A DNA stretch of 64,000 nt from an uncultured Bacteroidota bacterium (GTDB lineage: Bacteria; Bacteroidota; Bacteroidia; Bacteroidales; GWA2-32-17), in NCBI GenBank assembly GCA_903837285.1, contig CAILUD010000117.1, positions 1 through 64,000 of the forward strand. Reading direction: 5' to 3'. This document shows, piece by piece, positions 4,583 through 36,718 of this stretch. The position numbers and the translations under genes were made by a program. Under the pieces are notes generated by a model. That model was not told where the DNA came from and did not search any database. It worked only from the letters and a program-made list of their open reading frames with translations. The number at the start of each line of letters is the position of its first letter. Positions within the stretch are counted from its first letter, which is position 1.

Positions 4583-4693
4583 AAAAGATTGTTCAAATAG
4601 GTAACATTACCGATGCTTTAACGTATAAACATAATGAATTATTTCAATTAAAAAAAGAATACTAATCAAATTTATTGAATGAGAGATTTTTAC

Positions 4694-5395
4694 ATGAAGT
4701 TGAAAATAAAATTAGTTTTAATTTTCTTCCTTTTCGGAAGTTTCTATGCCTTTTCTCAGCCAAATAAAAAAACTGCAGACGATCAGGCAAGAAACAATAA
4801 TTTAAAAGACAAGAATTTTGAAGGTAGTATTCGTTTTGTTCAGGAAAATCTTGAAGACACTTTATACTATACATATTACGTAAAAAACAGATTGGTAAGA
4901 TTAGATGTTCACGAAAATTGCAAAAATTGCGAAAGCACTGATAATTATATGATTTTTGATTTAAATGGTGGAACAATTACTGCAATAAAACCAAGTCGTA
5001 AAATGTATATTAATGTTCCGCCAAAACCTTATACAGCAAATAAAGAGCAAAATTATCAGGTAATTAAATCAAAGAATAATAAAAAAATTCAGGGATATAA
5101 GTGTTATCAATGGCGGGTTAAAAACAAAGTTCAAAATACTGAAGTAGCATATTGGGTAGCACAGGATAATTTTAACTTTTTTGAAGATTTTTTAAAGTTG
5201 TGGAATCGTTCCGAGAAACACTCTGTTTATTTTTTGCAGATTCCTGAAACTGACGGTTTTTTTCCTTTGCAAAGCGAAGAACGAACTGTGCTTCGTGAGC
5301 AAAAAATGACACTTAGGGTATTAGATATTTCTAAGAAAAGTTTAGAAACGGAAATTTTTGTGATACCTAAAGAATATCAGCCTTACGATCATTGA
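4694..5395 (+). CDS. Secreted protein of unknown function (DUF4412-like)
   Basis: Begins MKLKIKLVLIFFLFGSFYAFSQ, a clear signal peptide with a cleavage site just before or after the glutamine, giving a periplasmic or surface protein of 233 residues. The mature part is beta-rich with short paired segments (YYTYYVKNRLVRLD; YMIFDLNGGTITAI; YKCYQWRVKN) resembling proteins that measure outer-membrane or secreted substrates (DUF4412-like), but I cannot assign a function. A start five codons upstream (4679) is possible. Its stop overlaps the stop region of the convergent LD-carboxypeptidase gene by 7 bases. Confidence 0.75.
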   Translation: MKLKIKLVLIFFLFGSFYAFSQPNKKTADDQARNNNLKDKNFEGSIRFVQENLEDTLYYTYYVKNRLVRLDVHENCKNCESTDNYMIFDLNGGTITAIKPSRKMYINVPPKPYTANKEQNYQVIKSKNNKKIQGYKCYQWRVKNKVQNTEVAYWVAQDNFNFFEDFLKLWNRSEKHSVYFLQIPETDGFFPLQSEERTVLREQKMTLRVLDISKKSLETEIFVIPKEYQPYDH

Positions 5396-6357: not shown

Positions 6358-8391
6358 ATGAAAAACTGGAAACGATATACAATAACATCGGCATTGCCTT
6401 ATGCAAACGGACCGATTCATATTGGACATTTAGCCGGAGTATATATTCCTGCTGATATTTATGTTAGATACCTTCGTAAACGAGGAAAAGATGTAATTTT
6501 TATTGGTGGTAGCGATGAGCATGGAGTTCCTATTACAATTAAAGCGCGTCAAGAAGGTGTTTCGCCAAAGGATATTGTAGACCGTTATCATAACATTATA
6601 AAAAAGTCGTTTGAAGATTTTGGAATTTCTTTTGATATTTATTCCAGAACAACTAATAAAACACATTTCGAAACAGCTTCAGAATTTTTCAAAAAGTTAT
6701 ACGATAAAGGAGAATTTGTTGAGAAAACAACTGAACAATATTTTGATACTGAGGCAAATCAATTCCTCGCTGATAGGTATATTACTGGCACCTGTCCGCA
6801 TTGCAGTAACGAAAAAGCTTATGGCGATCAGTGCGAAAAATGCGGTACATCGCTTAATGCAACAGATTTAATAAATCCTAAAAGTACAATAAGCGGCAGT
6901 AAGCCTATTAAAAAAGAAACTAGTCACTGGTTTTTACCTTTAGATAAATATGAATCATTCTTAAGAAAATGGATACTGGAAGATCATAAAGAGTGGAAAA
7001 CCAATGTTTCTGGTCAGTGTAAATCTTGGTTAGATATGGGGTTACAACCACGTGCCGTTAGTCGCGATTTGGATTGGGGAGTACCTGTTCCTGTTGAAGG
7101 CGCTACAGGAAAAGTTTTATATGTTTGGTTTGATGCGCCAATAGGATATATATCAGCAACCAAAGAATTAACAAAAGACTGGGAGAAATACTGGAAAGAT
7201 GAAGATTCAAGATTAATTCACTTTATAGGTAAAGATAATATTGTTTTTCACTGCATAGTGTTTCCTACAATGTTAAAGGCAGAAGGAAGTTTTATTTTGC
7301 CTGAAAATGTTCCGGCAAACGAATTTTTAAATTTGGAAGGAGATAAAATTTCTACTTCACGAAACTGGGCAGTCTGGCTACATGAATATTTAGAAGAATT
7401 TCCAGACAAACAAGATGTGTTGCGTTATACGTTATGTGCAAATATGCCCGAAACAAAAGACAATGATTTTACCTGGAAAGATTTTCAACTAAGAAATAAT
7501 AGTGAGTTAGTTGCAATACTTGGGAACTTTGTTAACCGTGCAATGGTGCTAACTTCAAAATATTTTGAGGGTAAAGTTCCTGCAAAAGGAAATGTTACAG
7601 ATGTTGAAAAAGAATTAGATAAAGCGATAATTGCCTTAAAGGCGGACATTGAAAATTCTTTAGAAAACTTTAAATTCCGTGAGGCATTAAAAGCTTTGAT
7701 GGATGTTGCAAGACTTGGGAATAAGTATCTTGCGGACGCTGAGCCCTGGAAAATTTATAAAACAGATCCAGATAGAGTTTCTACAATTTTATATTACTCG
7801 TTACAAATTGCTGGTGCATTAACTTCTTTATGCGAGCCATTTTTGCCATTTACTTCGCAAAAATTGTGTAAAATGTTAACTGTTTCAACTCAAAACTGGG
7901 AAGATGTTGGAAATATACATCCATTAAGTGAAGGCCATTTGTTAGGAGAATCATTTTTGTTGTTTGATAAAATAGAAGATGATGCAATTCAAAGCCAGGT
8001 TGACAAATTATTAGCAACAAAGAAAGCTAATGACGAAAAATCATTGCCCGTAGTTGAAGCTAAACCAGAAGTTTCTTATGATGATTTTACTAAAATGGAT
8101 ATTCGTGTAGGCACGGTGTTAGAAGCTGAACGGGTTCCAAAAACTCAAAAGCTTTTAAAATTAAAAGTTGATACAGGACTTGATGTTCGCACTTTAATTT
8201 CTGGAATAGCTGAATTTTATTCTCCTGAAAGCATGATAGGAAAACAGGTTTGTATTTTAGCGAACCTACAGCCACGAAATATTAAAGGAGTTGAGTCGAA
8301 AGGAATGATATTGATGGCAGAGGGAACTGATGGGACTTTAAAACTTATTTCGCCTACTGAGGTTAGTTTGAATGGTGCAACTATTAAATAA
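6358..8391 (+). CDS. metG: Methionyl-tRNA synthetase
   Basis: Charges tRNA-Met with methionine; class I synthetase. The 677 residues show HIGH at 21-24 ([14 protein letters not shown]), a zinc knuckle with two CxxC pairs ([17 protein letters not shown]) near 145-160, the KMSKS loop in the variant form KISTS at 330-334, the anticodon-binding helical domain, and a C-terminal EMAP/Trbp111-like tRNA-binding domain from about 574 ([20 protein letters not shown]) to the end, which makes the enzyme dimeric in relatives. The ATG at 6358 follows a strong promoter. Complete and ordinary. Confidence 0.97.
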
Positions 8392-8471: not shown

Positions 8472-8545
8472 GGGGAATTAGCTCATTTGGCTAGAGCGCT
8501 TGCCTGGCAGGCAAGAGGTAAGGGGTTCGATTCCCCTATTCTCCA
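8472..8545 (+). tRNA. tRNA-Ala, anticodon GGC
   Basis: A complete 74-nt cloverleaf: acceptor GGGGAAT / ATTCTCC, anticodon stem CTTGC / GCAAG with loop CTGGCAG (anticodon GGC), and T arm AGGGG-TTCGATT-CCCCT. The acceptor holds a G3-U70 wobble pair, the universal identity element for alanine, which agrees with the anticodon. CCA is not encoded (discriminator A followed by CAAC). It stands alone between metG and a 390-base non-coding stretch. Confidence 0.97.
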
Positions 8546-8906
8546 CAACATTGTAAGTAATTGAATGTAACCCCATACAAATTTCAATTTAAAAAGAAAG
8601 TCGAACACCTTTTGATTTATTTTTCTTAAATAAAAAGCATTCGAAACATTTTTTGTATAACAATATGTAAAATTTTATATGGTATGGGTGGTAAATTTAT
8701 TCATAATATCCCTATATGCTTTCAAATAGACATATTTATGGATAATTATTTGCGAAATTGAATAACTATAAAAATGAAAAATAGTTTGACTAAATTCAAT
8801 CAGCTATTGGATAGTTTTTTTACAAATCCCTAAAATTTGACTTTCCTACGAACCTTTACTAATGAAAATTAAAATGAATTTTTAAATTTAAAATCATTTA
8901 TTTATC
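8546..8906 (+). other. Non-coding stretch after tRNA-Ala
   Basis: About 360 bases of very A+T-rich DNA with no open frame of note. A weak long-distance inverted pair (CCCATAC near 8572 and GTATGGG near 8681) is the only structure seen. I found no repeat of the tRNA 3' end and no integrase, so there is no support for an integration site. The accessory-looking caspase operon starts just beyond it. Confidence 0.4.
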
Positions 8907-8914
8907 TATTTTTG
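8907..8914 (+). promoter_or_regulatory. Candidate promoter (-7 element) of the envelope caspase operon
   Basis: TATTTTTG matches TAnnTTTG and lies 21 bases before the first ATG of the operon. The -33 region is only T-rich. It overlaps the TTG at 8912 where a longer frame could begin, which argues for the ATG at 8936 as the true start. Confidence 0.45.
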
Positions 8915-8935
8915 TTAAAAAAAATACACTTGCAA

Positions 8936-9370
8936 ATGAATATATTCCCAAATATTAGATTGTTACTGATCTTAATACTTGTAATATTTTGCAGTTGTAA
9001 AAAAGAAAAAAATGGAAAATTTTTCCTTAAAGTTGTACCTCCCACAGATACAACAATAATAAAATTAAAAATAAATGATGTTGTTGGATTAGTTCCTATA
9101 GATAATAGCTTTCATCTTGTGGAAACTAGACTAGAGTTAACTTATGACCTGAAGAATGTCTTTATTTATAATCATTTCGCCGGTTCAGTATTTAATAATG
9201 TTACTGTAACTAGATATTTTGGAGAATTTGAAAAGAGTACAGAAGATAAGTATTATACTTTAATAATAAAATACAAGCATGAAACTTATATTAATTATGA
9301 CACGCAAGGTCAAGATTATGTCTGGTTAGATATTAGTGAAATTTCTCCTCCATTAAAACCTGATAATTAA
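8936..9370 (+). CDS. Small lipoprotein, first gene of the caspase operon
   Basis: Starts MNIFPNIRLLLILILVIFCSCKKEKN: a hydrophobic stretch ending in a lipobox (FCSC), so it should be lipidated and membrane anchored. The 144-residue mature protein is beta-rich (VPPTDTTIIKLKINDVVGLVPIDN) with no recognised domain. The stop overlaps the ATG of the next gene by one base (TAATG), a sign of coupled translation. A role as a partner of the outer-membrane proteins that follow is inference from position only. I do not recognise the family. Confidence 0.75.
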   Translation: MNIFPNIRLLLILILVIFCSCKKEKNGKFFLKVVPPTDTTIIKLKINDVVGLVPIDNSFHLVETRLELTYDLKNVFIYNHFAGSVFNNVTVTRYFGEFEKSTEDKYYTLIIKYKHETYINYDTQGQDYVWLDISEISPPLKPDN

Positions 9371-10032
9371 TGAAGATAAAATTTTTAATATTAATTCTTT
9401 CCGTTTTTACATTTACTGCCTTTTCTCAAGGATATCGTTTAACTCTTGGCAGCAGCAATTTATACTTCGAAAACTTCAGCAATCGTAAAATAATATTTAA
9501 TGGTTTAAATGCCGAATATACTTTTCTTTTTAATCGTTTAGGCTTAAGTCTTGAATGTGCATATTATTTGCCTAAAGCGTATTATGGGCAAATTGAGGCT
9601 GGACCTAGATATTCAGCTAATCAAACAATTCCCGTATATGTAAAAGGGAGCAGTCTTTTATGGGGAATAGGATTGACATTTGATATAATACATGCTAAAT
9701 CTCAGAAATTTAAATTGTATGCTTATTGCGGATATTCTGATTTTACACATTACGGAAAATATGACCCAGATCCTTTTGTAAAATTGTATGGTGGTAAAAG
9801 TACTGAAGGGGATGATGCTGGCGTGAAATATTTCGGAATAACAGGCCCTGACATTGGTATAGGGTGTGTTCTTAAAATTGGTAATTTGCCTGTTCATATT
9901 TCTATAAAACGCACGATTCACAAAGCAACACCTACTTGGGTTATCTCAGGCTATTTTGAAGGAAGTATTGGTATTGGATTTCCTATTCTTAAAAGTCCGC
10001 CTCCAACCGAAATTAAAAAATTAACTTATTAA
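9370..10032 (+). CDS. Outer-membrane beta-barrel-like protein (1)
   Basis: A signal peptide (MKIKFLILILSVFTFTAFSQ) precedes about 200 residues of alternating hydrophobic strands ending in aromatic residues (RLTLGSSNLYFENFSN; LLWGIGLTFDIIHA; FKLYAYCGYSDFTHYG; PVHISIKRTIHKA), as in small 8-strand outer-membrane barrels. No enzyme motif is seen. It starts within the stop codon of the lipoprotein gene and its own stop overlaps the next start by one base, so these genes are translated as a chain. Function unknown; the operon suggests an envelope complex with the caspase. Confidence 0.75.
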   Translation: MKIKFLILILSVFTFTAFSQGYRLTLGSSNLYFENFSNRKIIFNGLNAEYTFLFNRLGLSLECAYYLPKAYYGQIEAGPRYSANQTIPVYVKGSSLLWGIGLTFDIIHAKSQKFKLYAYCGYSDFTHYGKYDPDPFVKLYGGKSTEGDDAGVKYFGITGPDIGIGCVLKIGNLPVHISIKRTIHKATPTWVISGYFEGSIGIGFPILKSPPPTEIKKLTY

Positions 10033-10742
10033 TGAAAAACTGTCTGATTATCTTTATATCAATGATAAGTTTTGTGAGCTTTGCCCAGAAAACAGAATTT
10101 GGTATATTATATTCTCCCTATTTAATAAGCAAAATTACATTTGATAAAGATTATTTAATATTTGAGGACTGCTCATCTGTTTCAACTTTAAATAATAGGC
10201 AGTCAAAATTTTTCACAATACTTTCTACAGGTATATTTTTTAAATATAAAATACGCAATAAATATTTTCAAACAGAACTAAATTTTTTTGAATATAAATT
10301 TAAAACTATCACCAAAAATTATCAGTTTAGTTATAATAATATTCAAATTCCATTAATTATAGGATTTACGCCTAATCCGGGAAGGATGCTTAAGTTTCGA
10401 ATATACGGTGGGTTTAATAATAATATTGGAAAATTTTCGACGGGTTACTTAACTACCTATAAATCATTTTTAACAGATATTGAATATGAAAATTTTCTTG
10501 TAACTTCTGATAAATCCAGAAAAGAAGAAATGATGAATAAATTCAGCAGTTATTACATTAACATCATTGGAGGAATTGGCATTTCGCATTATGGTACTTC
10601 GCTTGATTTCCGAATGGAGAAAAACATTACTAACCTAAATAAAGTCCATTATGACTATAATGCCAATTTCAAAAGTTTTTTTATTTGTCGTTTTATTTTA
10701 AGCTTCAGACTCACCAATGTAAAAAAACAAAAACTATCTTAA
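10032..10742 (+). CDS. Outer-membrane beta-barrel-like protein (2)
   Basis: A signal peptide (MKNCLIIFISMISFVSFAQ) and a mature part rich in amphipathic strands (FKYKIRNKYFQTELNFFEYKF; QIPLIIGFTPN; LKFRIYGGFNNNIG; RFILSFRLTNV) look like a PorT/outer-membrane-barrel fold (OMP_b-brl). It is 236 residues long and not obviously a copy of the preceding barrel. The start overlaps the previous stop by one base; the next gene begins one base after its stop. No function can be named. Confidence 0.75.
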   Translation: MKNCLIIFISMISFVSFAQKTEFGILYSPYLISKITFDKDYLIFEDCSSVSTLNNRQSKFFTILSTGIFFKYKIRNKYFQTELNFFEYKFKTITKNYQFSYNNIQIPLIIGFTPNPGRMLKFRIYGGFNNNIGKFSTGYLTTYKSFLTDIEYENFLVTSDKSRKEEMMNKFSSYYINIIGGIGISHYGTSLDFRMEKNITNLNKVHYDYNANFKSFFICRFILSFRLTNVKKQKLS

Positions 10743-10743
10743 A

Positions 10744-11703
10744 ATGAGAGTCTTAATATTTTGCACTTTGTTTTTTATGATATTGTTTTCATGTAAAAAA
10801 GTAAATCGTGAATTGGTGGAGGAAAGATATTCTGTTGGAATTGTTTCTACAGAAGTGATAAGTTATACATCAACAAAAGCAGTAATAAAAGTGCGTTTTT
10901 TTGTGTTAGACTCCCGCAATAATGGCAAACTTATTTTAGAAAATATTTCAAATAACATATTTCCTGAATTCGATGATTTAACTTTAGATAGTGTTAATAG
11001 AATTACAACACCATTTAAAGGCAATTCTTCTGTGGCGATACTAGTCACAGACAAGTACTATAAAATATCCTATGAGTCTTTTAATTACGAATCTTATATT
11101 AGAAAAATTTTACGTTCCTGTGCTCCTACTAATGAAGTACTACTTTCTGAAGTTGGATTAAAATCAGATGTATTAAGTATAATAAATCCCGGTTTTACAA
11201 GAAATGCACTTGAATTAGATTTACCTTTGGCAGAAATGATGAATAATAATGACTATTATGAACCTATAGACTCACTATTTCTATGCAAGGCTATTGATTC
11301 ACTAATTAATTATATGAACAATAATGGGGACTGTCAAAACAAAAACATAATTATTTTTGGAGGTGAAAATTCAGGATATTATGAACAATTCTATGATTTA
11401 AATTTATTGTATAATAAAGCTATTTTGAACAATGTTACTTTTCATGATTTTGGATATGGTCAATTATCACCTATAACCGGCGGGGTACAATCAGGTTCAT
11501 TAAATTTGCTTTTAATGGGGAGTCGCCTAAACGATATAATGACTGGAAATTTTGAGTGCTTTGAATCAGTATGGACAGATTCTGTTATCTTCAATCACTT
11601 TCAGAGCGGTGGAACTTATAGCAATAGTTTTAAAATAAAGCTTACTACCAACTACGAAACAATAGAAGTGCCTATTAAATTTAGTTATTATATAAAACCA
11701 TAA
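10744..11703 (+). CDS. Lipoprotein with a degenerate von Willebrand A-like domain
   Basis: A lipoprotein signal (ILFSCKKVN) leads into 319 residues. From about 95 the order of segments follows a von Willebrand factor A fold: a first strand SVAILVTDKYY where DxSxS would be expected, a helix SYESYIRKILRSC, a helix LCKAIDSLINYMNN, a strand KNIIIFGGENS where a TDG strand would stand, then a helix and strand NNVTFHDFGYG. The metal-site residues are not conserved, so this is a fold-level suggestion. It lies between the barrel genes and the caspase gene in one coupled operon, and could be a surface adaptor for them. Confidence 0.65.
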   Translation: MRVLIFCTLFFMILFSCKKVNRELVEERYSVGIVSTEVISYTSTKAVIKVRFFVLDSRNNGKLILENISNNIFPEFDDLTLDSVNRITTPFKGNSSVAILVTDKYYKISYESFNYESYIRKILRSCAPTNEVLLSEVGLKSDVLSIINPGFTRNALELDLPLAEMMNNNDYYEPIDSLFLCKAIDSLINYMNNNGDCQNKNIIIFGGENSGYYEQFYDLNLLYNKAILNNVTFHDFGYGQLSPITGGVQSGSLNLLLMGSRLNDIMTGNFECFESVWTDSVIFNHFQSGGTYSNSFKIKLTTNYETIEVPIKFSYYIKP

Positions 11704-11707
11704 TTAT

Positions 11708-14700
11708 ATGAAATTTAGGCATTTCATTTTCTTTATTTTGTTATTTGTTGTTGAAATACAGCCATGTCATAGTCAAAATCCTGAGCTTACATTACAAACA
11801 GGACATTCTTCTGAAATTTCTACTTTTGCATTTAGTTACGACGGCAAATACCTAGCAAGTTCAGGGAAAGATAATATAATAATAATATGGGACTTTCAAT
11901 TAGGCAAACAAATTAAAATTCTAAAAGGCCATCACCAGAGCATTAATTCAATACATTTTTTAAATAAAGGCTATAACATTATATCAGCTGGTGATGATGG
12001 TCAAATAATATACTGGGACATATATACTGGAAAAGTTAAGCAAATATTACAATTGCAAAAACCTGTTTTATCTTTTGATATTAGTGATAATGATTCATTG
12101 TTAATTGCAACCGGACTATTTCCTGAAGTTAAATGTTGGAAAATAAAAGACAGTTTGGTTGTTTATAAAAGCATACAAGTTGCAAATATTATTAACAATA
12201 ACAATCATGAAACAGAGCAAGTAAACGACAAAAATAAAACTAAAATAAAGCCTCAATTAGTTTGCCCCTCAATAACTTTTGGCGCTTCATGTAATGATTT
12301 TTTTGTGTCACGTGCGTTTTACAAAAAAGGCAGTCGCCTAAATTGTTTGGATATAAGAGCCATGAGTATAGATGAAAAGAAGAAAGATACTCTTCTTTTT
12401 AGAGCGAATTTTATCAATTACCTTAAAAATGATTCTTTATTATTTTGTTCAACTACACCATCAAGTATAACAATATATAGTGTGCCAAAAAAGAAGATAA
12501 TTCTTTTCCGACCAGGTGAGTTTAAAAAATTGAATTTCATTAGTATTTCTTCTAATTCAAATGATTCATTAATAGCTGCAGTAAATGAAGATGGGCTTAT
12601 CTATTTTTGGAATATGTCAGGACACTTCATTGAGCCTATTAAAAATCCTAACAGTAAGTATACTGCTATTTGCTTTCATCCTTTTAAAAAAGAAATAATT
12701 GTAACTGGCAATAAAAATGGGGTTATTACTATATTAAATGTTGAGAATTGGAAAGTTATAAGAGAACTAGAGACAGAGATGGCACCTCTTACAAACCTCT
12801 GTGTTAATAAGAGTGGAAATGCAATTGCTGTTACTGGAAATAATAACATTATTACAACATTTAATCTTGGAAGCAAAGTTAGTATTACTCGTTTTTCAAA
12901 TCCGAAAGGAAAAATTAACGGTATTCATTTTATTTCTGATTCAACACTTATTTCTGCAGGTTCAGACAATAAAATATGTTTCTGGGATATTAATAATAGT
13001 TCTGTTAAAAAAATCAAAGGGAACCGAAGTCCTAAACTTATTAACGGTGTTTTAAACGCTCCTTTATATTCCCTTTTTCTAAATTCATTAACTTCTTTTT
13101 TCTTTGCCAATAAATTTATTTTAGGACACGATGAATCTCTTGACGTAACAGCGTTATCAGATGATAATGCTTTGTTTGCTACAGGTGGCAAAGGATTTAA
13201 TAAGGGCATCTTTAATCAATTTTTTATTCCAAGAATATTTCCAATTCACATTATTGATCCAATAAGAAAGAAAAAAACAGCCAAACTAAAAGCGCACTAT
13301 CTATCTATTAACGACATTTCAATTAATAACAACCATTCATTAATTGCAAGTTGCGGAAAAGATTATGAGCAAGGAGTTATTGATTCATCTTTTGCAATGC
13401 TTATACCAATAGTAGGACAGTACAAGATAATAAAGGCATTTGCTAATAAAAAACTTATGTTTCCGATATACAACTCACTTAAAATATGGAATACAGATAA
13501 TAACAAACTATTTAAAACATTCCATTTACCTTCTGAAGTTAGGAACCTTTTGTTTAGCCCTAAGAATGATATTTTAGTATTATTGGATGATAAAGAGAAC
13601 ATTGTTATTTTAGATTATAAAACTGATAGTATTAAAAAAGTAGCATATGGAAATGGACCCCTACTATTTCAACCAGATGGAAAATCAATTTATTTTCAAG
13701 GCAAAATCAACTCTCTAATGCAATTTGATTTAAAAAACAATAAAACCATAATTGAATTTAAAGGGCACAATGACTCCATATCCTCGGCAGCATTGTTTCC
13801 AGATGGGAAACGACTTGCAACTACATCATTGGATGGCTCTTTGAAAGTATGGGATGTTGCAAGTGGAAAAGAAATCGTAACAATGTATGCATTAATTAGC
13901 AGCGATTTCATAATTAAAACGCCTGATTACTTTTATTATGCAACTAAAAATGCTAAAAAAGAAATAGGATTTACATTTGGCATTAAATTTTATCCATTCG
14001 AGCAATTTGATCTTCAATATAACCGCCCAGATATTGTTCTTGCAAGGTTGGGTATAGCATCTAAAGAGTTGATAAAAGCATATTACCAGGCTTATAATAA
14101 AAGATTAAAGAAAATGGGGTTTTCAGAAGATATGTTCGAAAGCGATTTTCATTTGCCTGAAGTAACCATTCTTAATGTCGATAAATTACCATTAAATACT
14201 GATAATTCGCAATTTTCATTTTCTGTTAATGCAATCGATAGTAAATATAACCTTAATAGAATAAGCGTGTGGGTTAACAATGTTCCTCTATATGGTGTTA
14301 ATGGTGTAAATCTTAGGCCATTTCAAATAAATTCAACAGAAAAAGAAATAACAGTTGATTTATCACAGGGAATAAATAAAATTCAGATATCATGCTTAAA
14401 TGAAAAAGGTGTTGAATCGCTAAAAGAATCATTCGAGATTAATTATCAGCCACAAAAAATTAGAAAGCCGAATTTGTATATTGTTGCCATAGGAGCATCG
14501 GAATATCAGAATAAAGAATGGAATTTAACTTATGCAGCTAAAGACGCCAATGATTTCTCTGAATTATTTAATCAACAAAAAAACTTTTACGAAAATATTT
14601 ATACGAACAAAATAACAAATCAAGAAGTCACTGTTGAGAATATTAGAAATATAAAACAAAAACTAAAATTAAGTAAGGTTGATGATGTTGTTATAATATT

Positions 14701-15298
14701 TTATGCAGGTCATGGTTTGTTAGATGACAGCCTTGATTACTATATGGCCACATATAATATTAATTTTAATAAACCAAGTGAGAATGGATTAAAATATGAT
14801 GATTTAGACATTTTGTTAGATTCTATTCCTTCGCGTAATAAAATTCTGTTTATTGACGCTTGCCATTCTGGAGAAGTTGATAAAGAAAGCAGTCAAGAGT
14901 TAGTTACAGAAAATATTGTTGAAAAAGACATTGTATTTAGGGGCGTTAAACCACGAGGATATAATACACTGTCAAATATTGGTTATAATAATTCATTCGA
15001 ATTAATGAAAGATATGTTTTCTGATATTAGAAAAGGAACTGGTGCTATAGTTGTTTCTTCTGCAGGTGGTGGCGAATTTGCTTTTGAAGGAGAAATTTGG
15101 AAAAATGGAGTATTTACATATTCTATGGTAAATGGATTAAATTCTTTTATGGCTGATGAAAATAACGACAAAAAAATTACAATTTCTGAATTACAAAATC
15201 ATATTCTTAAAAAAGTTCAATTTTTAACAAATGGTAAACAAAAACCAACTATAAGGCAAGAAAATATTGATAATGATTTTGTTATTTGGAATAAATAA
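11708..15298 (+). CDS. Secreted WD40-repeat caspase-like protease (peptidase C14)
   Basis: The signal peptide MKFRHFIFFILLFVVEIQPCHS is followed by about 700 residues of WD40 blades (for example DGKYLASSGKDNIIIIWD, GYNIISAGDDGQIIYWD, DGKRLATTSLDGSLKVWD), a linker, an Ig-like segment at about 815-915, and a C-terminal caspase domain from about 920. The catalytic pair is intact: His1002 in FYAGHG and Cys1052 in IDACHSG. The family cleaves peptide bonds after basic or acidic residues; the target here is unknown. Being exported makes it differ from cytoplasmic defence caspases. It is the last gene of a five-gene operon, 4 bases after the vWA-like lipoprotein, and is followed by a hairpin terminator. 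Confidence 0.9.
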   Translation: MKFRHFIFFILLFVVEIQPCHSQNPELTLQTGHSSEISTFAFSYDGKYLASSGKDNIIIIWDFQLGKQIKILKGHHQSINSIHFLNKGYNIISAGDDGQIIYWDIYTGKVKQILQLQKPVLSFDISDNDSLLIATGLFPEVKCWKIKDSLVVYKSIQVANIINNNNHETEQVNDKNKTKIKPQLVCPSITFGASCNDFFVSRAFYKKGSRLNCLDIRAMSIDEKKKDTLLFRANFINYLKNDSLLFCSTTPSSITIYSVPKKKIILFRPGEFKKLNFISISSNSNDSLIAAVNEDGLIYFWNMSGHFIEPIKNPNSKYTAICFHPFKKEIIVTGNKNGVITILNVENWKVIRELETEMAPLTNLCVNKSGNAIAVTGNNNIITTFNLGSKVSITRFSNPKGKINGIHFISDSTLISAGSDNKICFWDINNSSVKKIKGNRSPKLINGVLNAPLYSLFLNSLTSFFFANKFILGHDESLDVTALSDDNALFATGGKGFNKGIFNQFFIPRIFPIHIIDPIRKKKTAKLKAHYLSINDISINNNHSLIASCGKDYEQGVIDSSFAMLIPIVGQYKIIKAFANKKLMFPIYNSLKIWNTDNNKLFKTFHLPSEVRNLLFSPKNDILVLLDDKENIVILDYKTDSIKKVAYGNGPLLFQPDGKSIYFQGKINSLMQFDLKNNKTIIEFKGHNDSISSAALFPDGKRLATTSLDGSLKVWDVASGKEIVTMYALISSDFIIKTPDYFYYATKNAKKEIGFTFGIKFYPFEQFDLQYNRPDIVLARLGIASKELIKAYYQAYNKRLKKMGFSEDMFESDFHLPEVTILNVDKLPLNTDNSQFSFSVNAIDSKYNLNRISVWVNNVPLYGVNGVNLRPFQINSTEKEITVDLSQGINKIQISCLNEKGVESLKESFEINYQPQKIRKPNLYIVAIGASEYQNKEWNLTYAAKDANDFSELFNQQKNFYENIYTNKITNQEVTVENIRNIKQKLKLSKVDDVVIIFYAGHGLLDDSLDYYMATYNINFNKPSENGLKYDDLDILLDSIPSRNKILFIDACHSGEVDKESSQELVTENIVEKDIVFRGVKPRGYNTLSNIGYNNSFELMKDMFSDIRKGTGAIVVSSAGGGEFAFEGEIWKNGVFTYSMVNGLNSFMADENNDKKITISELQNHILKKVQFLTNGKQKPTIRQENIDNDFVIWNK

Positions 15299-15394: not shown

Positions 15395-15436
15395 GCTAAT
15401 TATTAAAATAAGGAATAATTAGCGTTTCGTTTTTTA
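15395..15436 (+). terminator. Terminator of the caspase operon
   Basis: The 10-bp perfect stem GCTAATTATT / AATAATTAGC with a 9-base loop is followed by a T-rich tail (GTTTCGTTTTTTA) on the plus strand. The stem is A+T-rich, so it may be modest in strength. It lies between two convergent genes and may act for both. Confidence 0.55.
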
Positions 15437-18400
15437 TTCCACCAACACAAACGCTGCCCAGTAATAAGGATCGTATTTACCTCTCATTACTTTTTGTGTT
15501 TCAGTAAAAGCTAATCTGATATCTTTTTGTTTTAAGAGTTTTGTGTAAAATGTTTCCATAAACTCTACGGTTTCTTTATCGGGAACCTGCCATAAACTCA
15601 TAACAATAAACTTTACTCCTGCCATTTTAAAAGCCCGTTGTAAGCCATAAACTCCTTCGCTACCCTTTATGTCGCCTAAGCCTGTTTCGCATGCAGAGAG
15701 AACAACAAGTTCTGTATTTCTCATATTAATGTTAGATACTTCATAAGCAGTTAATACGCCCTCATTGTCTGTTCTTCCCCAATCTTCTGACCATATTTTG
15801 TTCGCTCCAGCAAAGACTAACCCCGAACGCATCATAGGATTTTTATTCTCAACAAACATCCAGTTACCAAAACCGGAACTCCCACGAAATGCAACAAGTC
15901 CAGTATCTGCTTTTATGTCATTTTTTATTTGCTTTCGAATTTGTTCAGGATCGGGATAGAAAAAGCCATGTGTAGCAATATGCAAAATACTCGGTTGAAT
16001 AACACTATCGTTATATAGTTCTTTAAACTTATCTTCCTTTGCTTCTTTGTTTGAAAATGATTGGTATGTAACTTTATTCTTTTTAAATTGTTTTTCAATT
16101 ATTTCTTTTTCATTAAGAGTGCCAGGTAAATACTGCCACAGTTCTTGTTTAATAGTATCAGGATTATAATTAATACCACCAAATATTGCAGCGATTAAAT
16201 AGCTCTCTTTTTTAACTTCTTTTGAATTTAATATTTTCCCGGTGGTACTTAGTTGTTGCAAACTGTATTTATCGAAAAGCATTTGGTTTTCATTGCCAAG
16301 AGCAGCAAAAGAAATTTTATTAAGTACTCCAACCGGCGCAAAATAAACTGTTTTTATTCCTGAAAGATATTGTTCAAGTGGCTGCCAAATTAATTTATAA
16401 AGTTCATTATTTACAATCTTATTTGTTCCGTACAATTTTAAAACCTTTTGAAAATCGCTTCCTCCATACAAATCCAATACATTCTGTAATTGATGATCCT
16501 CAAATAATTTTATTGACTCAGGTTTTTTACTATCAGGTCTGATTAATAATGCAGCATATATTGTAGTATCATTGTTTTTCCCCTGAGTAAAATTAACAAA
16601 CTCAATTGCTGCTTCGCCAGGCTTAAGGTTTTTCTGAACATCTTCCCATTTGTAGCTGAATAGGTTTTGGATATTAGCAAATTCTGATGATAACTTTACC
16701 AGTTTTCGTTCCTGTTCGTTGGCTGCTTTTTCTAGAGAATCTATATTTTGATTCCTTTCTTCCATCGGTATACCTTGAAGTAAAGATATTTGATTTCTGA
16801 GTTGTTTTAAAAGAAAATATGCATTTTTTACTGTTGTATCAGTACTATTATAAACAACATCAAGAATACCTTGTGTACTTTTTAACAAAAGTCCTTTCAA
16901 AATAAGCTCATTATTGTAACAAATTCCAGAAAGTGTATCAGTTTGTTTTGGATAATTTAAATTAAAAGAATGTATATCATTAAAAATAGTTTTTGATTTT
17001 TCAAAATACAGTTCTTTATCCTTTTCACTTAAAATGCTAAAATTTTCCTGTAAGAGATTAATTGTTATTTTTTTTGATTTCAACAATAGAGGATAAGCTT
17101 CCTTTGGTTTATTTAATTTTAAATATGATTTTGCTAGAATTGGATATTGTGACGCTAAAGTTGATTTATTGCCTAATTCTTCAAATTTCTTTAACGACCT
17201 TTCAAGATATGCGTTGGCAGACAATAACTTACCCTGCTTGTCTTCAAATTCACCAAGATTCATTAAACAGGTTGCTATTTGCAATTTGTTAACAGTCTCT
17301 TCGGCTATTAATAGTGATTTCTCAACAGACAATTTAGCAGTATGAAAATCTCCTTGGTAAGACTTCATTAAACCAATATTACTTAAACCGTAAGCAGTTC
17401 CAACTTTATCGTCTATTCCTTCCGATATTTCTAATGCTTTTTCAAAATATGACAAAGCAACTTGATAATTTTTTTGATTACCATTTACGGCAGCAATATT
17501 CATTAAACAATTTGAAATTCCTAGTTTTTCGCCTATTTCTTCCGCAATTATTAAAGATTTTTCATAATATGTTAAAGCGGCTAAATTATTGCCAAGCTCA
17601 CTGGCTACATCACCAAGAGCTCTTAAACTCACGATAATTCCAGGTTTATTTCCTTTTTTATCAGCTATAGATAATGATCTTTCAAAAAAAGATATGGCAG
17701 CAATGTAATTGGCTTTATCATAAGCAACACTTCCTAAATTTTGCAAACATTTTGAAACAATTAATTCATCACCTATTTCTTCGTTTATTTTTAAGGACTT
17801 TTCATAATTACAGATAGCTGCAGGATAATTGCTTTGTCTCTGATTTAAACTACCTATATTTATTAAAGAACCAACTATTCCTCTTTTATCGTTTAATTCT
17901 TCACATATTTTTAATGATCTTTCATAATAGGATATAGCTTCAATATAATTACTTTGTCTAGCTTCAACAAGACCTAAATTATTTAAGCAACCTGAAATTC
18001 CTAATTTATCACCTCTAATTTCGCTTACTTTTAATGATCTCTCATAATAAGATATAGCAGCAGGATAATTCCCTTGATTCATTTCAACATTACCAAGATT
18101 CATTAAAGATTTTGCACTACTTGATTTATCGCCAAGTTCTTCACTAATTTTTAATGATCTTTCATAGTATTTTTTTGCAACAGAATAATTACCAAAACTC
18201 AATTCGTTCATTCCAAGTGCTTCTAAACTTGATAATATGCCTGATTTGTCGCCAAGTTCTTCGCTTATCTTTAATGATTTTTCAAAATACGAAATTGCCA
18301 ACGGAAGATTACTTTGATTCTTTGCGATAAGTCCTAAAAAAACTAAACATTTTGATATAACTAATTTATCATTAACTACCTCACCTATTTTTATGGATTT

Positions 18401-18883
18401 TTCAAAGTTCAATATTGCCACAGGAAAATTATTTTGGTTCCAAGCAACAATACCCATATTATATAAACATCTTGATGCACCTGAATTATTATCGATTACT
18501 TCGAATATTTTTAATGAATTTTTAAAATATGAATTAGCTACAGAATAATCTCGTTGATTTAATAAAACTGATCCAATATATCTCAAGGCAGTCGCGTTTA
18601 TTGTATTCTTTTTCGAATACATTTTTATGTTTTTTACACTTAAATTTGTGTCAATTACAGAAGTGTACCACCAAATAGCAGAATCACCATTAAAGTTTTT
18701 AAATAAATCCCCAATACTCACACACAATTTCATTCTAGTTGTATCTGCATCCGTTCCTTTCAATTTTGGTAAAGTTTGTAGAACTTGCTTAAGAGAATCT
18801 ATTTTTCTAAAATCCTGAGATTGCAATTTAGATACGTTACCAATTATAAAAAAAGTGCAAATAGCTATGATTACCTTATTCAT
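15434..18883 (-). CDS. Secreted TPR-CHAT protein (caspase-clan protease)
   Basis: 1149 residues. A signal peptide ([23 protein letters not shown]) leads into at least twelve tandem 40-residue TPR units of the tetratricopeptide/kinesin-light-chain style (repeating [22 protein letters not shown]), a helical linker at about 600-700, and a C-terminal CHAT domain. The His/Cys pair is intact: His972 in [10 protein letters not shown] and Cys1065 in [13 protein letters not shown], followed by the usual [26 protein letters not shown]. CHAT proteases are separase/caspase relatives; TPR-CHAT proteins in type III-E CRISPR systems and gasdermin loci are cytoplasmic, but this one is exported. It converges on the WD40-caspase operon. 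Substrate unknown. Confidence 0.92.
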   Translation of the reverse strand: [1149 protein letters not shown]

Positions 18884-19506: not shown

Positions 19507-19626
19507 TGGTGTTAAGTAGTTTTTTATTTGCGTTTTTAATAATCTCTTGTTTGACTTTTTTATTTGAAAATTTATTATTCAATCTTTTTTTTATCTTTAC
19601 TTAAGTTTTATAAAAAAGTAAATAAA

Positions 19627-22002
19627 GTGAGTAAGAATAAATCAAATGTCGTGTTTTTCTTATTTTTACTGTTGTTTATTTTTATAAAACAATTTGCAAT
19701 TTCTCAGAATCTTGCCAAAACAGATAGTTTAAAGTCATTATGGTTATCTGCAAATGAAGATAGTTTAAAAATTAAACTTTTACTAGAACTGGGAGATGCA
19801 TTCGAACCGATAAACAGCGATTCTGCTGAATATTCTTTTAATAAAGCGTTAAAATTAGCAAAAAACAATTCTGATTATCTTTCAATTTGTTATAATAAAT
19901 TAGGATTGTTTTATAGCAATGCCGGTAATTATGAAATGGCAATAAATGATTTTCAGTTATCATTAAAGATATTTGAAAACAAAAATAATCAGATTGAAGT
20001 TGCAAGTTGTTATATTAATATAGGTGAAATATATATGTCTCAAGGGAATTATCCAAAATCTTTGGAGCTGTTTCAAAAAGCAGTGAAAATTCTTGAAAAA
20101 ATAATTAAATCAAATGACAAGACTACTTCTTTATTGGGAAAAAAGGGAATAGTAAGATGTTATAACGATCTTGGAGGTGTACATGCCGAAAACGGTAATT
20201 TTTCTCAAGCTACGGAATATTTTAAAAAGGCGTTAGAGGTAGAAGAACAAATAGGCGATAAGCGAATTATTGCAGGTTGCAATAATAATATTGGTAATGT
20301 ATACTATATGCAGAGTAATTACCCAAAAGCCATAGAATATTATGTAAAAGCATTAAAAATCGCAGAAGAATTACAAGACAAATCAAGTATGTCAGAAAGA
20401 TATAATAATCTAGGAGTTGTTTTTACAGAAATGCGCAAATATAAAGAGGCGATAGAGTATTATAAGAAATCATATGCCATAGATGAAGGTCTTGGTGATC
20501 AGAAAGGAATGTCGATTGTTTTAGGAAATATTTCATTATTAAAAATTCGACTTCAGAATTATCACGAGGCGATTAAATTTGCCGAAAAGAGTTTAGATAT
20601 TGCAAAAAAAATAGGTGCTCTTGATGAAGAAAAATGTGCTTATAATTACTTAGCCACAGCTTATGATAGTCTTGGAGATTATAAAAAAACCAGTCATTAT
20701 TTAAAGTTGTTTAAATTAACAACAGACAGTATTTTTAATATTGAGTCTGGAAGGCAGATAAAAGAAATGGAAGCTGTATATCAAACCGAAAAAAAACAAA
20801 AAGAAATAGAATTATTAAGCAAAGACAAAAAACTTCAAGAAGCTGAATTAAGTAAACAAGAAACACAAAAAGTAGGTTTTATAATAGGGTTTATTTTAAT
20901 GATAATATTATCATTAGTAATTTTTCGTAGTTATAATCATAAAAAGAAAGCAAACACCTTACTTACATTACAAAAAAATCAAATAGAAGAAAAAAACGAA
21001 GAATTAAATCAGCAGAACGAAGAAATTGCAGCTCAACGAGATGAAATTGAGGCGCAAAGAGATTTGGTAACAATACAGAAAGGAGAAATAGAAGAAATTC
21101 ACTCTGAGCTTACTTCCAGTATTCACTATGCAAAAAGAATTCAGAATGCAGTATTACCAAACAGAGAATTTATTGAAACACTTTTAACTGACTATTTCAT
21201 ATTGTTAAAACCAAGAAATATTGTTAGTGGCGATTTTTATTGGGTCACAATTAGAAAGAATTTTTTAATGGTTGCTTTAGCTGATTGTACAGGACATGGA
21301 GTTCCAGGTGCATTTATGAGTATGTTAGGTATTTCTTTTTTAAATGAAATAATTATTCGTCCAGATGTTAATCAGGCAAGTCAGGTTTTAGATAAATTAA
21401 GAGACTCTGTTTTAAAATCGCTTCATCAAAAGGATTTGCAAGGCGAACAAAAAGATGGAATGGATATAGCATTTGTTTGCATAAATCTCGAATCTACATT
21501 TTCTGATTCTGGAGTAGAACAATATGCAGTGCAATTTGCCGGAGCCAATAATTCGCTTTATATTGTAAAAAAATCTGAAAACGAAAAGTTAAAAGCCATA
21601 CCAACCTTCGACTCTCATTCGGAAAGCTCAGGGCAGGCAGCTCAGGATAACGGCAGGCAAGTTGAAAGTATAGCTTCTGACTTTCAACTTGATGAACTTA
21701 AAGGTGATAAAATGCCAATATCAATATATAGAAACATGCAAGGTTTTACCAATCATGATTTTACTTTAAAAAAATCTGACATTATATATTTGAGTTCAGA
21801 TGGTTATTCTGATCAATTTGGTGGTCCAAATGAGAGAAAATATCTTTCTAAAAATCTCAAAAAATTATTGCTAGATAATTGTGATAAACCAATGGCTGCG
21901 CAAAAATTAATTTTAGAGGAAACGATAGAATCTTGGATGAATAATTTTGGTAAACCCTTTGAGCAAACCGATGATATTACGGTAATGGGGATTAAAATAT
22001 AA
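19627..22002 (+). CDS. TPR-SpoIIE (PP2C-type) phosphatase
   Basis: From a GTG at 19627 (no in-frame ATG nearby; a TTG at 19564 is also open) it encodes 791 residues: a hydrophobic export or anchor segment (VVFFLFLLLFIFIKQFAIS), six or seven TPR units (about 60-365), a membrane segment (VGFIIGFILMIILSLVIF) near 420, a coiled coil rich in Q and E, and a cytoplasmic SpoIIE phosphatase with the metal-binding motifs GDFYWV, ADCTGHGVPGAFMSMLG and DDITVMGIKI. Such proteins dephosphorylate anti-anti-sigma partners, so the RsbW-like gene at 48556 is a conceivable partner. The phosphatase part contains a repeat-derived insertion at 21605-21690. Confidence 0.88.
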   Translation: MSKNKSNVVFFLFLLLFIFIKQFAISQNLAKTDSLKSLWLSANEDSLKIKLLLELGDAFEPINSDSAEYSFNKALKLAKNNSDYLSICYNKLGLFYSNAGNYEMAINDFQLSLKIFENKNNQIEVASCYINIGEIYMSQGNYPKSLELFQKAVKILEKIIKSNDKTTSLLGKKGIVRCYNDLGGVHAENGNFSQATEYFKKALEVEEQIGDKRIIAGCNNNIGNVYYMQSNYPKAIEYYVKALKIAEELQDKSSMSERYNNLGVVFTEMRKYKEAIEYYKKSYAIDEGLGDQKGMSIVLGNISLLKIRLQNYHEAIKFAEKSLDIAKKIGALDEEKCAYNYLATAYDSLGDYKKTSHYLKLFKLTTDSIFNIESGRQIKEMEAVYQTEKKQKEIELLSKDKKLQEAELSKQETQKVGFIIGFILMIILSLVIFRSYNHKKKANTLLTLQKNQIEEKNEELNQQNEEIAAQRDEIEAQRDLVTIQKGEIEEIHSELTSSIHYAKRIQNAVLPNREFIETLLTDYFILLKPRNIVSGDFYWVTIRKNFLMVALADCTGHGVPGAFMSMLGISFLNEIIIRPDVNQASQVLDKLRDSVLKSLHQKDLQGEQKDGMDIAFVCINLESTFSDSGVEQYAVQFAGANNSLYIVKKSENEKLKAIPTFDSHSESSGQAAQDNGRQVESIASDFQLDELKGDKMPISIYRNMQGFTNHDFTLKKSDIIYLSSDGYSDQFGGPNERKYLSKNLKKLLLDNCDKPMAAQKLILEETIESWMNNFGKPFEQTDDITVMGIKI
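21605..21690 (+). repeat. Palindromic repeat-like segment inside the SpoIIE coding region
   Basis: The coding sequence here changes texture: CCTTCGACTC... and AGCTCAGGGCAGGC resemble the common Bacteroidota intergenic repeat (CCTTCGACT...GCTCAGG), followed by an 11-bp perfect inverted repeat AAGTTGAAAGT / ACTTTCAACTT (21659-21669 and 21680-21690). It encodes a polar low-complexity stretch (HSESSGQAAQDNGRQ) between conserved SpoIIE strands and keeps the frame open. Confidence 0.5.
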
Positions 22003-34291: not shown

Positions 34292-36718
34292 TTATTGTTT
34301 AATTATTTTTTTAAACTCAAAATTTTTATTCTGCTCAAGTTTTAATATATATATCCCGGTTGCAAAATCTGTTGTTTGTACTTTTGTTTTTTCTGATATT
34401 ATTCCATTAATAACAATTTGTCCTAAAGAATTAATAATTTCAAAATGTTGATTATTTATTTTTTCAAAACATTCAATTATTAGTTCATTTGTTACTGGAT
34501 TTGGATATATATTGAAATTACTTAAAGAATTACTGTTTTCTGAAAACCCACTTGTGTTATCTAAAAATTTCGCAATAAAAGCATCACGATAAACATGGTC
34601 GCCAATAATTGTTTGGTGCGCACCTGGAGTTGCGATTGCACTGTCAGACTGAGTTTGCCCAGAAATGTAAATATTGGAATTATTATCACAGGAAATTCCC
34701 TTTGCCTCAGTGCTTGAAAGTCCACCAAAGTAAGTTCCCCAATCGCGAATACCATTATTATTAAATTTTACCAAAAAGCCATCAGTGGTTCCAGCATCTG
34801 CATTTTTTATTGGTTGATACGAATTTGGGGTTGCAATTAAATTAGCACATCTTGTACTACCTGTGAGGTATATGTTATTTGCATTGTCACAAGCAAGTCC
34901 TCCAAAAAAACTTTCTCCCCAACCTCCAAAGTATGTTCCCCATGCTCTAACACCACTATTGTTAAATTTTACAATATATAAATCCCAAGCAAAACCGCCA
35001 TTAGTAGTGTTTTGAAACGCTCCAGAAGTAAAAATTCCGTCAATTGATCTTGTACTACCAGATATAAAAATATTACCATAATTGTCCATAACAATTCCAC
35101 GTCCATAATCAATATTACTACCACCATAATAAGTACCCCACTGCCGAACTCCATTACTATCCAATTTAGCAATAAATGCATCATAATTTCCACCTGCATC
35201 TATTTGGTGCGAGCCCGGAGTTGAAATTGATTCAATAGATAAAGTGGAGCCAACGATATAAATATTACCATTATCATCAATTGCTATAGAACCACCGCTA
35301 TCACCATAAAATCCTCCAAAATAAGTTCCCCATTTACGTTCACCATTTGTGTTAAATTTTGCAATAAAAGCATCTGAGATACCACCGAAAATTGGTTGGT
35401 AACTTCCAGGTGTAGCAATAGCGTAATCTGATTTTGTCATACCTATTAAAAAAATATTACCATAAATATCTGAAGCTAAATCTCCTCCATATGTGTCGTA
35501 ATTTCCGCCATAATAAGTCCCCCATTGGCGAACTCCATTAGAATTAAGTTTAATTATATAAGCATTTTGATTTCCATCTAATAATGTTTGATGAGCATTA
35601 GAAGTTGAAATTGCATTTTGTGAAAGAGTAGTTCCTGTTACATAAACATCTCCATTTGCATCACTAATAATTCCAATAGACTGATCCATAGCACTTCCAC
35701 CATAATATGTTCCCCATAAACAGTTGCCAGTACTACTAAATTTCACTATAAAAACATCAAAATTTCCTCCACAGGAGTCCTGAAAAGCACCAGTAGTAGC
35801 AATTGCATTATTAGATTTAGTATTACCTGTTAAAAAAGTATTATCATTAATATCACAATAAACATCACTTCCTATATCATCATCACTACCACCATAGTAT
35901 GTTGCCCAACTTAAATCGGGATTAGGATCTATTATTAAAGTTTGAGAGTTAATGTAACTAGGAATGTTAAAACTGTATATATTGTTATTAATTTCTTTAA
36001 ATGAAACATCTACTTTCAAGTTAGTTTCTTTAATCCAGCTTGCTGGTATATTTTCTGAAAAGAAACCATGGGCTACAGTAATATTTATTTTGTTGCCATT
36101 TAATTCAGTTTTATTAGCTCCAATATAATGTAATTTAATTTGGTTTGCATCTGCTCCGGGATGAACAATAAAGGTATATTCAACAGCTTTTTCTTTTGTT
36201 GGATAAGCTTCAAATACCATATCTATTCCTGAATAAATATTTTTGTAAGTTATTTTATTATAACTATGAACATTTGTAGCTCCACATTCTGGTGTAACAG
36301 CATTATAATAATTCAGGTAACTAACTGAGGATTCTTCTGCTATAATTTCAGGATTATAGTTAGCTCCAATTAATTCAACATCTACACGATGATAATAATA
36401 TGTTATTTCTTTTTCAGCTTGCTCAAAAGGTCTCATTAAATCAAGTGATAAACTATTTTTAATTTCTTTTACTTCTTTTTTATAAGTATCGTAACTAAAA
36501 CTATTCTTTTTAAGTTGAACATTCATTCCATTTCCTAGGCATAAAAGGAACTTAACATCAGGATTGGCTTTATAATTCTGATCATGTATTTGACCTTTAT
36601 TTTCAATAAATCCATATTGAGGCTTTTTTGAATTGTAATTTGAAATATCATTCTTCTTTTGAGCGTTAACACTGCAAAAGGTAAAAATAGTTAAGAGTAA
36701 TAAAATGGTCTTATTCAC
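34292..36718 (-). CDS. Secreted SBBP beta-propeller protein with T9SS sorting domain
   Basis: 808 residues from a GTG: a signal peptide (MNKTILLLLTIFTFCSVNAQ), an N-terminal region with the familiar FIENKGQIHDQN start, then seven or so propeller repeats of about 65 residues, each with the phrase WGTYYGGSNxDYG...DxxGNIYISGxTxSxxxIATxGxxQ, and a C-terminal type A sorting domain (NFNIYPNPVTNELIIECFEK ... ATGIYILKLEQ) that directs export by the type IX system and attachment to the cell surface. It should be an adhesin-like or matrix surface protein. It is divergent from the giant UvrA gene. No catalytic motif is seen. Confidence 0.9.
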   Translation of the reverse strand: MNKTILLLLTIFTFCSVNAQKKNDISNYNSKKPQYGFIENKGQIHDQNYKANPDVKFLLCLGNGMNVQLKKNSFSYDTYKKEVKEIKNSLSLDLMRPFEQAEKEITYYYHRVDVELIGANYNPEIIAEESSVSYLNYYNAVTPECGATNVHSYNKITYKNIYSGIDMVFEAYPTKEKAVEYTFIVHPGADANQIKLHYIGANKTELNGNKINITVAHGFFSENIPASWIKETNLKVDVSFKEINNNIYSFNIPSYINSQTLIIDPNPDLSWATYYGGSDDDIGSDVYCDINDNTFLTGNTKSNNAIATTGAFQDSCGGNFDVFIVKFSSTGNCLWGTYYGGSAMDQSIGIISDANGDVYVTGTTLSQNAISTSNAHQTLLDGNQNAYIIKLNSNGVRQWGTYYGGNYDTYGGDLASDIYGNIFLIGMTKSDYAIATPGSYQPIFGGISDAFIAKFNTNGERKWGTYFGGFYGDSGGSIAIDDNGNIYIVGSTLSIESISTPGSHQIDAGGNYDAFIAKLDSNGVRQWGTYYGGSNIDYGRGIVMDNYGNIFISGSTRSIDGIFTSGAFQNTTNGGFAWDLYIVKFNNSGVRAWGTYFGGWGESFFGGLACDNANNIYLTGSTRCANLIATPNSYQPIKNADAGTTDGFLVKFNNNGIRDWGTYFGGLSSTEAKGISCDNNSNIYISGQTQSDSAIATPGAHQTIIGDHVYRDAFIAKFLDNTSGFSENSNSLSNFNIYPNPVTNELIIECFEKINNQHFEIINSLGQIVINGIISEKTKVQTTDFATGIYILKLEQNKNFEFKKIIKQ

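Follow-up and report, generated by a model that had tools for sequence, protein, structure and literature searches.

The stretch of DNA considered here (the window, 64,000 nucleotides of contig CAILUD010000117.1 from assembly GCA_903837285.1, an uncultured bacterium of the Bacteroidales) carries at positions 8936-15298 five + strand genes, P1 to P5, which form an operon ending in an apparently exported WD40-caspase. The operon is real and recurrent and is targeted to the cell envelope, and we regard the chances as evenly balanced that it encodes a sensor-gated cell-envelope protease module with exchangeable sensors. Its first gene (P1, 8936-9370) encodes a small lipoprotein-like protein of 144 residues with the signal ..VIFCSC-KKEK, and the reading frame contains a further TTG upstream at 8912. 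It is followed by P2 (9370-10032; exported, 220 residues, possibly a small barrel), P3 (10032-10742; exported, 236 residues, with a predicted OmpA/OmpW/Ail-like outer-membrane barrel fold), P4 (10744-11703; a lipoprotein with a predicted beta-sandwich plus von Willebrand factor A (vWA) fold, whose metal-ion-dependent adhesion site (MIDAS) residues are degenerate in the window) and P5 (11708-15298; exported, 1196 residues, with WD40 propeller, linker and C14 caspase, and no tail for the type IX secretion system, T9SS). P1/P2 and P2/P3 overlap by one base, while P3/P4 and P4/P5 are separated by one and four bases; the gene calls confirm the positions and the spacing (1-base overlaps or 1-4 base gaps) given in a preliminary description. 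The export signal that this description saw on every product is likewise recovered, as all five N-termini look export-type by eye and by a hydrophobicity rule, lipoprotein-like in P1 (..FCSC) and P4 (..LFSC) and reading ..AFSQ, ..SFAQ and ..CHSQ in P2, P3 and P5.

The WD40 repeats of P5 (PF00400, 1.7e-43) are joined to the Peptidase_C14 domain at residues 926-1191 (8.1e-19; 68.7 bits against a Pfam cut-off of 21.4) by a linker that matches no Pfam family. A 1196-residue caspase with a signal peptide and intact His1002/Cys1052 had been proposed beforehand and this holds, both residues being kept together with Asp1050 in 89 of 89 P5-family proteins, the window included. Asp1050 may have a role in C14 specificity. 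In PADLOC, P5 matches the model ‘caspase’ (1e-8) and, over the WD40 part, HEAT-ARM_XIII (7.5e-18), and its caspase region partly matches NF047832, the EACC1-associated caspases, at 68.6 bits, below the curated cut-off of 140; sequence searches of the PDB gave nothing useful for the caspase. The P5 clade as a whole looks exported, judging from the N-termini of its full-length members, 75 of 79 of which have a signal by rule and 78 of 79 by eye, with L137, the exception, beginning inside the propeller. Two other C14 caspases of the source genome (L015, 8459-10633, and L016, 86-2602) are not close relatives of P5 and have signal-peptide-like N-termini as well; all four caspases found in this genome thus look exported.

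Periplasm or cell exterior had both been named as the place of action. The C14 domain stops five residues short of the protein end, and nothing but C14, C13 and Raptor-type caspase-like families is recognised in the final 277 residues; the sorting tail PF18962 was not found there, other sorting-domain types being expected to appear in Pfam if listed rather than searched one by one. PF18962 was not found in P1-P4 either (Pfam). Since the source genome has at least 150 Por_Secre_tail (T9SS tail) matches, 150 of 268 candidates having been scored, the lack of such a tail makes the periplasm the likely location of P5, and T9SS export to the outside less so. The same evidence bears on a secreted digestive protease, whereby P5 would degrade extracellular proteins for nutrition like gingipain-type clan CD proteases. 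Such a role would agree with the signal peptide and with a speculation by the authors of PMC4933709 on polymer or extracellular protein breakdown by some bacterial metacaspases (papers cited by PMC number are covered here in excerpt), but in addition to the missing tail a narrow basic specificity is expected for the C14 family (PMC5756287), and we consider it very unlikely.

For the partner proteins P1-P4, neither Pfam nor NCBIfam nor PADLOC gives a significant family, and weak matches are limited to P1 (E 0.004-0.05). The AlphaFold2 model of P4 (pLDDT 78) combines a beta-sandwich with an alpha/beta domain, and its best PDB fold matches in Foldseek are ArnAB, a bacterial vWA protein, inter-alpha-inhibitor, TRAP and integrin I domains (E down to 3.3e-8). 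The vWA-like lipoprotein proposed earlier is therefore supported by the fold search, as a fold class only since the TM-scores are modest (0.31-0.44 by query length, among the 50 matches listed); a PDB sequence search gave only a weak vWA hint. Both P2 and P3 had been described as barrel-like. For P3, a model built from a 21-row alignment (pLDDT 80) shows eight long strands and best matches OmpA, OmpW, OprG, Ail, NspA and OmpX (E down to 7.6e-6, TM up to 0.58), which supports an OmpA/OmpW-like eight-stranded outer-membrane barrel at the level of fold class. P2 is possibly a small barrel and has no family match in Pfam. Barrel genes from unrelated common families would have spoken against the preliminary description. 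P3 does belong to a common superfamily, with 8 of 21 family members matching OMP_b-brl_2 and 3 of 21 OMP_b-brl at E up to 0.1 (the P3 of the window matches neither), though the caspase-linked P3 group is recurrent and common to three cassette types.

Recurrence was assessed in a census of 81 loci and 934 open reading frames (ORFs), namely the window, a second copy in its own genome, 76 caspase-seeded loci and three P4-seeded loci. Thus 77 of the 81 were chosen by the caspase, three by P4, and one is the window. The caspase-seeded loci derive from profile A6 (linker plus caspase of 23 family members including the window). It picked up 367 relatives among named genomes, and the 80 top-scoring ones were kept as 76 loci; counts of partners use the fixed profiles A7 (P4, 14 rows) and A8 (P3, 21 rows). 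There are 89 P5-family proteins of at least 700 residues, in 79 of the 81 loci. Within the 934 ORFs, every one of the 17 P4 and 26 P3-family members belongs to a run of genes that leads directly into a P5 in the same direction, with gaps of no more than 300 bases. Loci with a vWA lipoprotein P4 before P5, here type A, account for 17 P5 genes, and the caspase-seeded loci alone give 12 of 75 classifiable. Type A is present in the isolate Chryseosolibacter histidini (L117) and in metagenome-assembled genomes of a Flammeovirgaceae (L129) and a Cyclobacteriaceae (L165), the last with P3 and P4 in swapped order; the contig of L108 ends inside P4, so P3 is not visible there.

Beyond the window, the complete order P1-P5 was seen in no more than three near relatives: L012 (GWA2_32_17), which has a tandem second copy without P1, L014 and L105; L104 and L106 represent the contigs of L012 and L014 again and were counted once. 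The second copy of the source genome (L017, contig 24) is a diverged operon with a different first gene. P1 homologues occur in five loci only (window, L104, L105, L106 and L111); the one in L111 is on the opposite strand, at the edge of its contig. P2 has seven copies, the window counted, its position in other type A loci being empty or taken by an exported protein without detectable similarity. Thus the widely spread unit is P3-P4-P5, and the expectation that the gene order recurs across Bacteroidota stands for these three genes in distant genomes and not for the full five. The tandem duplication of L012 (6572-19130) has diverged in P2-P4 of its second copy. Another locus of the source genome (L018, with a 391-residue lipoprotein) gave only a weak P4 match and was dropped.

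A search seeded with P4 is free of the caspase bias of the census. Single-sequence P4 searches found little (one of 247 genomes of the order, its own, and no relative in a first scan of genome contigs), so profiles were needed. A7 searched over 395 genomes of the class gave 18 matches in 14 genomes, and all 16 outside the own genome were annotated. In the three best foreign matches (G391, G606 and G575; E 8e-59 to 2e-43) P4 lies directly between a P3-family barrel and a P5 caspase. Eleven weaker matches cover only part of the profile, and no P5-family caspase was found in those stretches. A 5-row P4 profile over the 247 order genomes matched 10 genomes, with E-values stronger than 1e-40 only for the own two copies and for one gene of G192, which lies 15 bases before P5. 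Iterated profiles drifted, that of P3 to generic barrels and that of P4 to other vWA proteins of 500-1000 residues, two of which (in L072 and L085) share a stretch with a P5 caspase on the opposite strand, outside its operon.

The background of exported neighbours points in the same direction. For 37 of 75 P5 genes, the gene immediately upstream is exported, runs the same way and lies no more than 60 bases off; this holds for 25 of 116 other exported genes with 300 residues or more (Fisher 1.2e-4) and for 8 of the 44 with 600 residues or more (Fisher 8e-4). P4-seeded loci were left out, the controls came from the same loci without cassette genes, and the export rule was applied alike. Common barrels and lipoproteins that merely happen to lie beside a caspase, as the common superfamily of P3 and the many solo P5 genes could suggest, are hard to reconcile with the P4-seeded search, the placement of all 17 P4 genes and recurrence across several P5 clades, and this explanation, already disfavoured, is the least credible one that we weighed.

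P5 is associated with further cassettes. Type B (five cases) combines a barrel with a lipoprotein of a PepSY-like group, two of these lipoproteins having PepSY_like repeats in Pfam and a third no significant match; a ZU5-like appearance of the type B lipoprotein was left unconfirmed by the same Pfam results. Type C (five cases) has a barrel only. Type D (four cases) has a CHASE2 membrane protein (1.8e-25 in Leeuwenhoekiella blandensis, 2.2e-20 in Labilibacter marinus), a lipoprotein and a small exported protein that looks FecR-like by eye and for which Pfam gives nothing. Nine P5 genes were left unclassified (gene or contig cut). A mosaic cassette in L165 (4054-11386) holds a weak CHASE2 protein (4.4e-5, below the cut-off), a small exported protein, P4, P3 and P5. 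Three flavobacterial isolates (L136, 3381-11380; L143, 3407-11380; L169, 3373-11386) show the order lipoprotein, CHASE2, small exported protein and caspase of 1713-1716 residues, and additional caspase or CHAT genes lie in their vicinity. An 8-Mb genome, G631 (L202, 4375-12676), shows the theme in rearranged form: P4 adjoins an OMP_b-brl-like protein (6.8e-4, below the cut-off) and a TPR protein, and an exported caspase of 422 residues lies about 2 kb upstream.

The history of the cassette was followed on a quick tree of the C-terminal parts of the 89 P5 proteins. Type A needs at least nine changes on it, against a mean of 15.7 after shuffling (0 of 500 as low), and at least four on well-supported branches; type C forms one side of a branch. 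The distribution of type A fits an old cassette that was often lost, replaced or moved. Distances among 16 triads are correlated, with r of 0.68 for P4-P5, 0.73 for P3-P5 and 0.92 for P3-P4.

What we infer about complex formation, location, activation, trigger, substrate, specificity and role of the module can be outlined as follows. P5 would be exported by Sec and stay in the periplasm, while P3 (with P2, if a barrel) would assemble at the outer membrane with the lipoproteins P1 and P4. Contact is likely to run through the vWA domain of P4 and the WD40 propellers of P5, and might thereby keep the caspase at the membrane. Damage, contact or a ligand could then serve as the envelope signal by which P5 is clustered or released, and its caspase domain might cut envelope proteins after Lys/Arg, as characterised non-caspase C14 members do (PMC5756287). 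Pfam gives no nucleoside triphosphatase (NTPase) family for P1-P4, and those it lists for P5 include none either. ATP is also absent from the periplasm, and activation should thus not need it, unlike in NACHT, STAND or MoxR caspase systems, and across Bacteroidota the same caspase would be wired to other exported input cassettes.

Several observations weigh against this sensor-gated module. The two P4 matches that come next after the best foreign ones (E 3e-37 and 3e-28), which G631 contributes, do not adjoin P5, and P4 relatives occur in a patchy manner, in 3 of the 10 genomes of the window’s taxonomic family, its own included. In the census, 29 of 80 classifiable P5 genes look solo, without a close neighbour, and 20 of 80 have other close neighbours, so the partners are dispensable for the caspase family; the dedicated membrane partners of the preliminary description are therefore retained only in part, as the caspase is not always found without neighbours and yet does not require these, being elsewhere solo or with different exported cassettes. 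The metal-site motif DxSxS is absent from the P4 of the window, which has TDKYY there, and D-x-S is present in 8 of 14 aligned members (counted from the alignment, since a pattern search hit chance occurrences in several rows). Once five close relatives are left out (n=11), the correlation of distances falls to r=0.30 for P4-P5 (p 0.024), with 0.40 for P3-P5 (p 0.007) and 0.66 for P3-P4, and common descent alone could explain part of it. Further, the export calls come from reading the sequence and from a crude hydrophobicity rule, not from SignalP.

A rival explanation is an envelope maintenance or maturation protease, whereby P5 would constitutively process surface or periplasmic proteins, with the barrel and lipoproteins as dock or substrates and no gating. 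Recurrent co-direction, tight spacing and catalytic residues intact in 89 of 89 proteins would suit such a role, and exported cassettes that vary by lineage are what substrates would show. On the other hand, some cassettes hold a sensor-type domain (CHASE2), and the operon is patchy within its own family, unlike housekeeping genes. We regard maintenance as rather unlikely.

Convergent with P5, a gene at 15434-18883 on the - strand encodes a TPR-CHAT protease-like protein of 1149 residues (CHAT 8.3e-58) with a signal-peptide-like start, exported by rule; it lies outside the operon and is a possible associate. Seven genomes that were checked have 0-4 CHAT genes each, and one of these lies within about 8 kb of P5 in four of them (G000, G250, G249 and G192; the source genome is among the four) against a rough expectation of 0.21 (Poisson 7e-5); the proximity was noticed post hoc, and region sizes were estimated by hand. 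A CHAT gene near P5 was not seen in G391 or G575, and G606 has no CHAT; 7 of the 76 named loci hold one. No CRISPR genes were noticed beside the TPR-CHAT gene, no search having been aimed at them.

These genes bear on self-killing or defence, by which an envelope attack (phage, predator or contact-dependent competitor) would be detected at the outer membrane, whereupon P5, perhaps joined by the exported TPR-CHAT protein, would destroy the envelope and kill the cell. Known conflict systems use caspase and CHAT domains as effectors (PMC7159879, PMC10907252), and the PADLOC matches of P5, the CHAT proximity, the tandem copies and the patchy spread would all be in line with this. However, the PADLOC matches cover only shared caspase and propeller domains and P2-P4 have none, no NTPase switch is seen, and the CHAT link is post hoc and missing from the genomes named above. 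A phage origin was rejected, as phage records and viral contigs held no relative; P4 relatives were not found on plasmids, and a single distant relative of the linker and caspase (29% identical) lies outside Bacteroidota on a Sulfitobacter plasmid (NZ_CP045376.1, 8667-10016). Taken together, defence appears improbable. The sensor-gated module might extend to an apoptosome-like, ATP-independent and outer-membrane-anchored caspase pathway in which exchangeable surface or inner-membrane sensors (barrel plus vWA, barrel plus PepSY-like lipoprotein, CHASE2 plus small exported protein) feed a single conserved WD40-caspase in the periplasm, which the exported TPR-CHAT protein might join in an envelope response by two proteases; we put this forward as a tentative and somewhat doubtful extension. 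A recurrent exported caspase coupled to outer-membrane partners would extend caspase control to the outside of the cytoplasm and free it from ATP, and would give a major phylum a new route of envelope signalling or envelope killing. The module is testable given its versions in isolates of Chryseosolibacter histidini (barrel plus vWA) and of Leeuwenhoekiella, Winogradskyella and Labilibacter (CHASE2 type).

Upstream of the operon, a tRNA-Ala (ggc) gene lies at 8472-8546, about 390 bases before the operon start; it was rejected as an integration site, a second copy of the tRNA 3' end not being found in the window. The Bacteroidetes-type promoter pattern has nine matches in the window, against 11.6 expected by chance, and none at the operon start. 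At 19564-22002 (+) a TPR protein with a SpoIIE (PP2C) domain was rejected as a further caspase partner, since 49 SpoIIE matches in the genome, seemingly many, make proximity to caspases uninformative. The window also encodes a T9SS cargo protein with DUF7948 and SBBP repeats (34292-36718, -) and a UvrA-like protein of 1610 residues with ABC and UvrA DNA-binding domains (36809-41641, +), unusually long-looking for UvrA.

In the literature covered, bacterial caspase-type proteases are mostly treated as parts of NTPase-controlled death or defence systems. The view that known prokaryotic caspases are mainly cytoplasmic needs qualification, as putatively exported ones have been reported: according to the 2012 survey PMC3501461, 46 of 398 caspase-only sequences may carry a signal peptide and 14 caspase operons contain OmpA, and PMC6426788 describes signals resembling those of twin-arginine translocation (TAT-like) on cyanobacterial pseudo-orthocaspases. 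The latter resemble P5 as C14 homologues proposed to leave the cytoplasm, but have Tyr/Ser for His/Cys, while the P5 dyad is intact and comes with WD40 propellers and envelope partners. CHASE2 and caspase are also combined in cyanobacterial fusions, the caspase being thought cytoplasmic (PMC3501461, PMC5756287). The vWA-MoxR-VMAP ternary conflict systems (PMC7159879) likewise encode a vWA protein together with a caspase, and the predicted fold of P4 would correspond to the vWA component; in contrast, the operon shows no VMAP and no MoxR-type ATPase (none in P1-P4, among the families listed for P5 or in the nearby genes 4679-5392, 6358-8391, 15434-18883 and 19564-22002), its products look exported and its vWA protein lipoprotein-like. 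The EACC1-associated caspases share only the partial match to the P5 caspase region, no EACC1 protein being seen in the operon. Eight-stranded OmpA/OmpW/Ail barrels share the predicted fold of P3, which in the window has no significant sequence family and is found as a caspase partner, and the neighbouring TPR-CHAT protein differs from TPR-CHAT proteases by its signal-peptide-like N-terminus. The open-licence excerpts covered contain no description of an exported caspase with a barrel-vWA-lipoprotein module. The closest likeness is to the prokaryotic WD40 caspase homologues (orthocaspases/metacaspases) of PMC3501461, which share the C14 His-Cys dyad, the DACHSG motif and the WD40 fusion and, in general terms, possible signal peptides and OmpA-containing operons; P5 differs in belonging to a defined clade that looks exported, shares a conserved linker and repeatedly comes with barrel-vWA-lipoprotein cassettes, for which the excerpted survey gives no description. 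Thus, the operon is best called an exported clade of the known prokaryotic WD40-caspases with exchangeable envelope cassettes.

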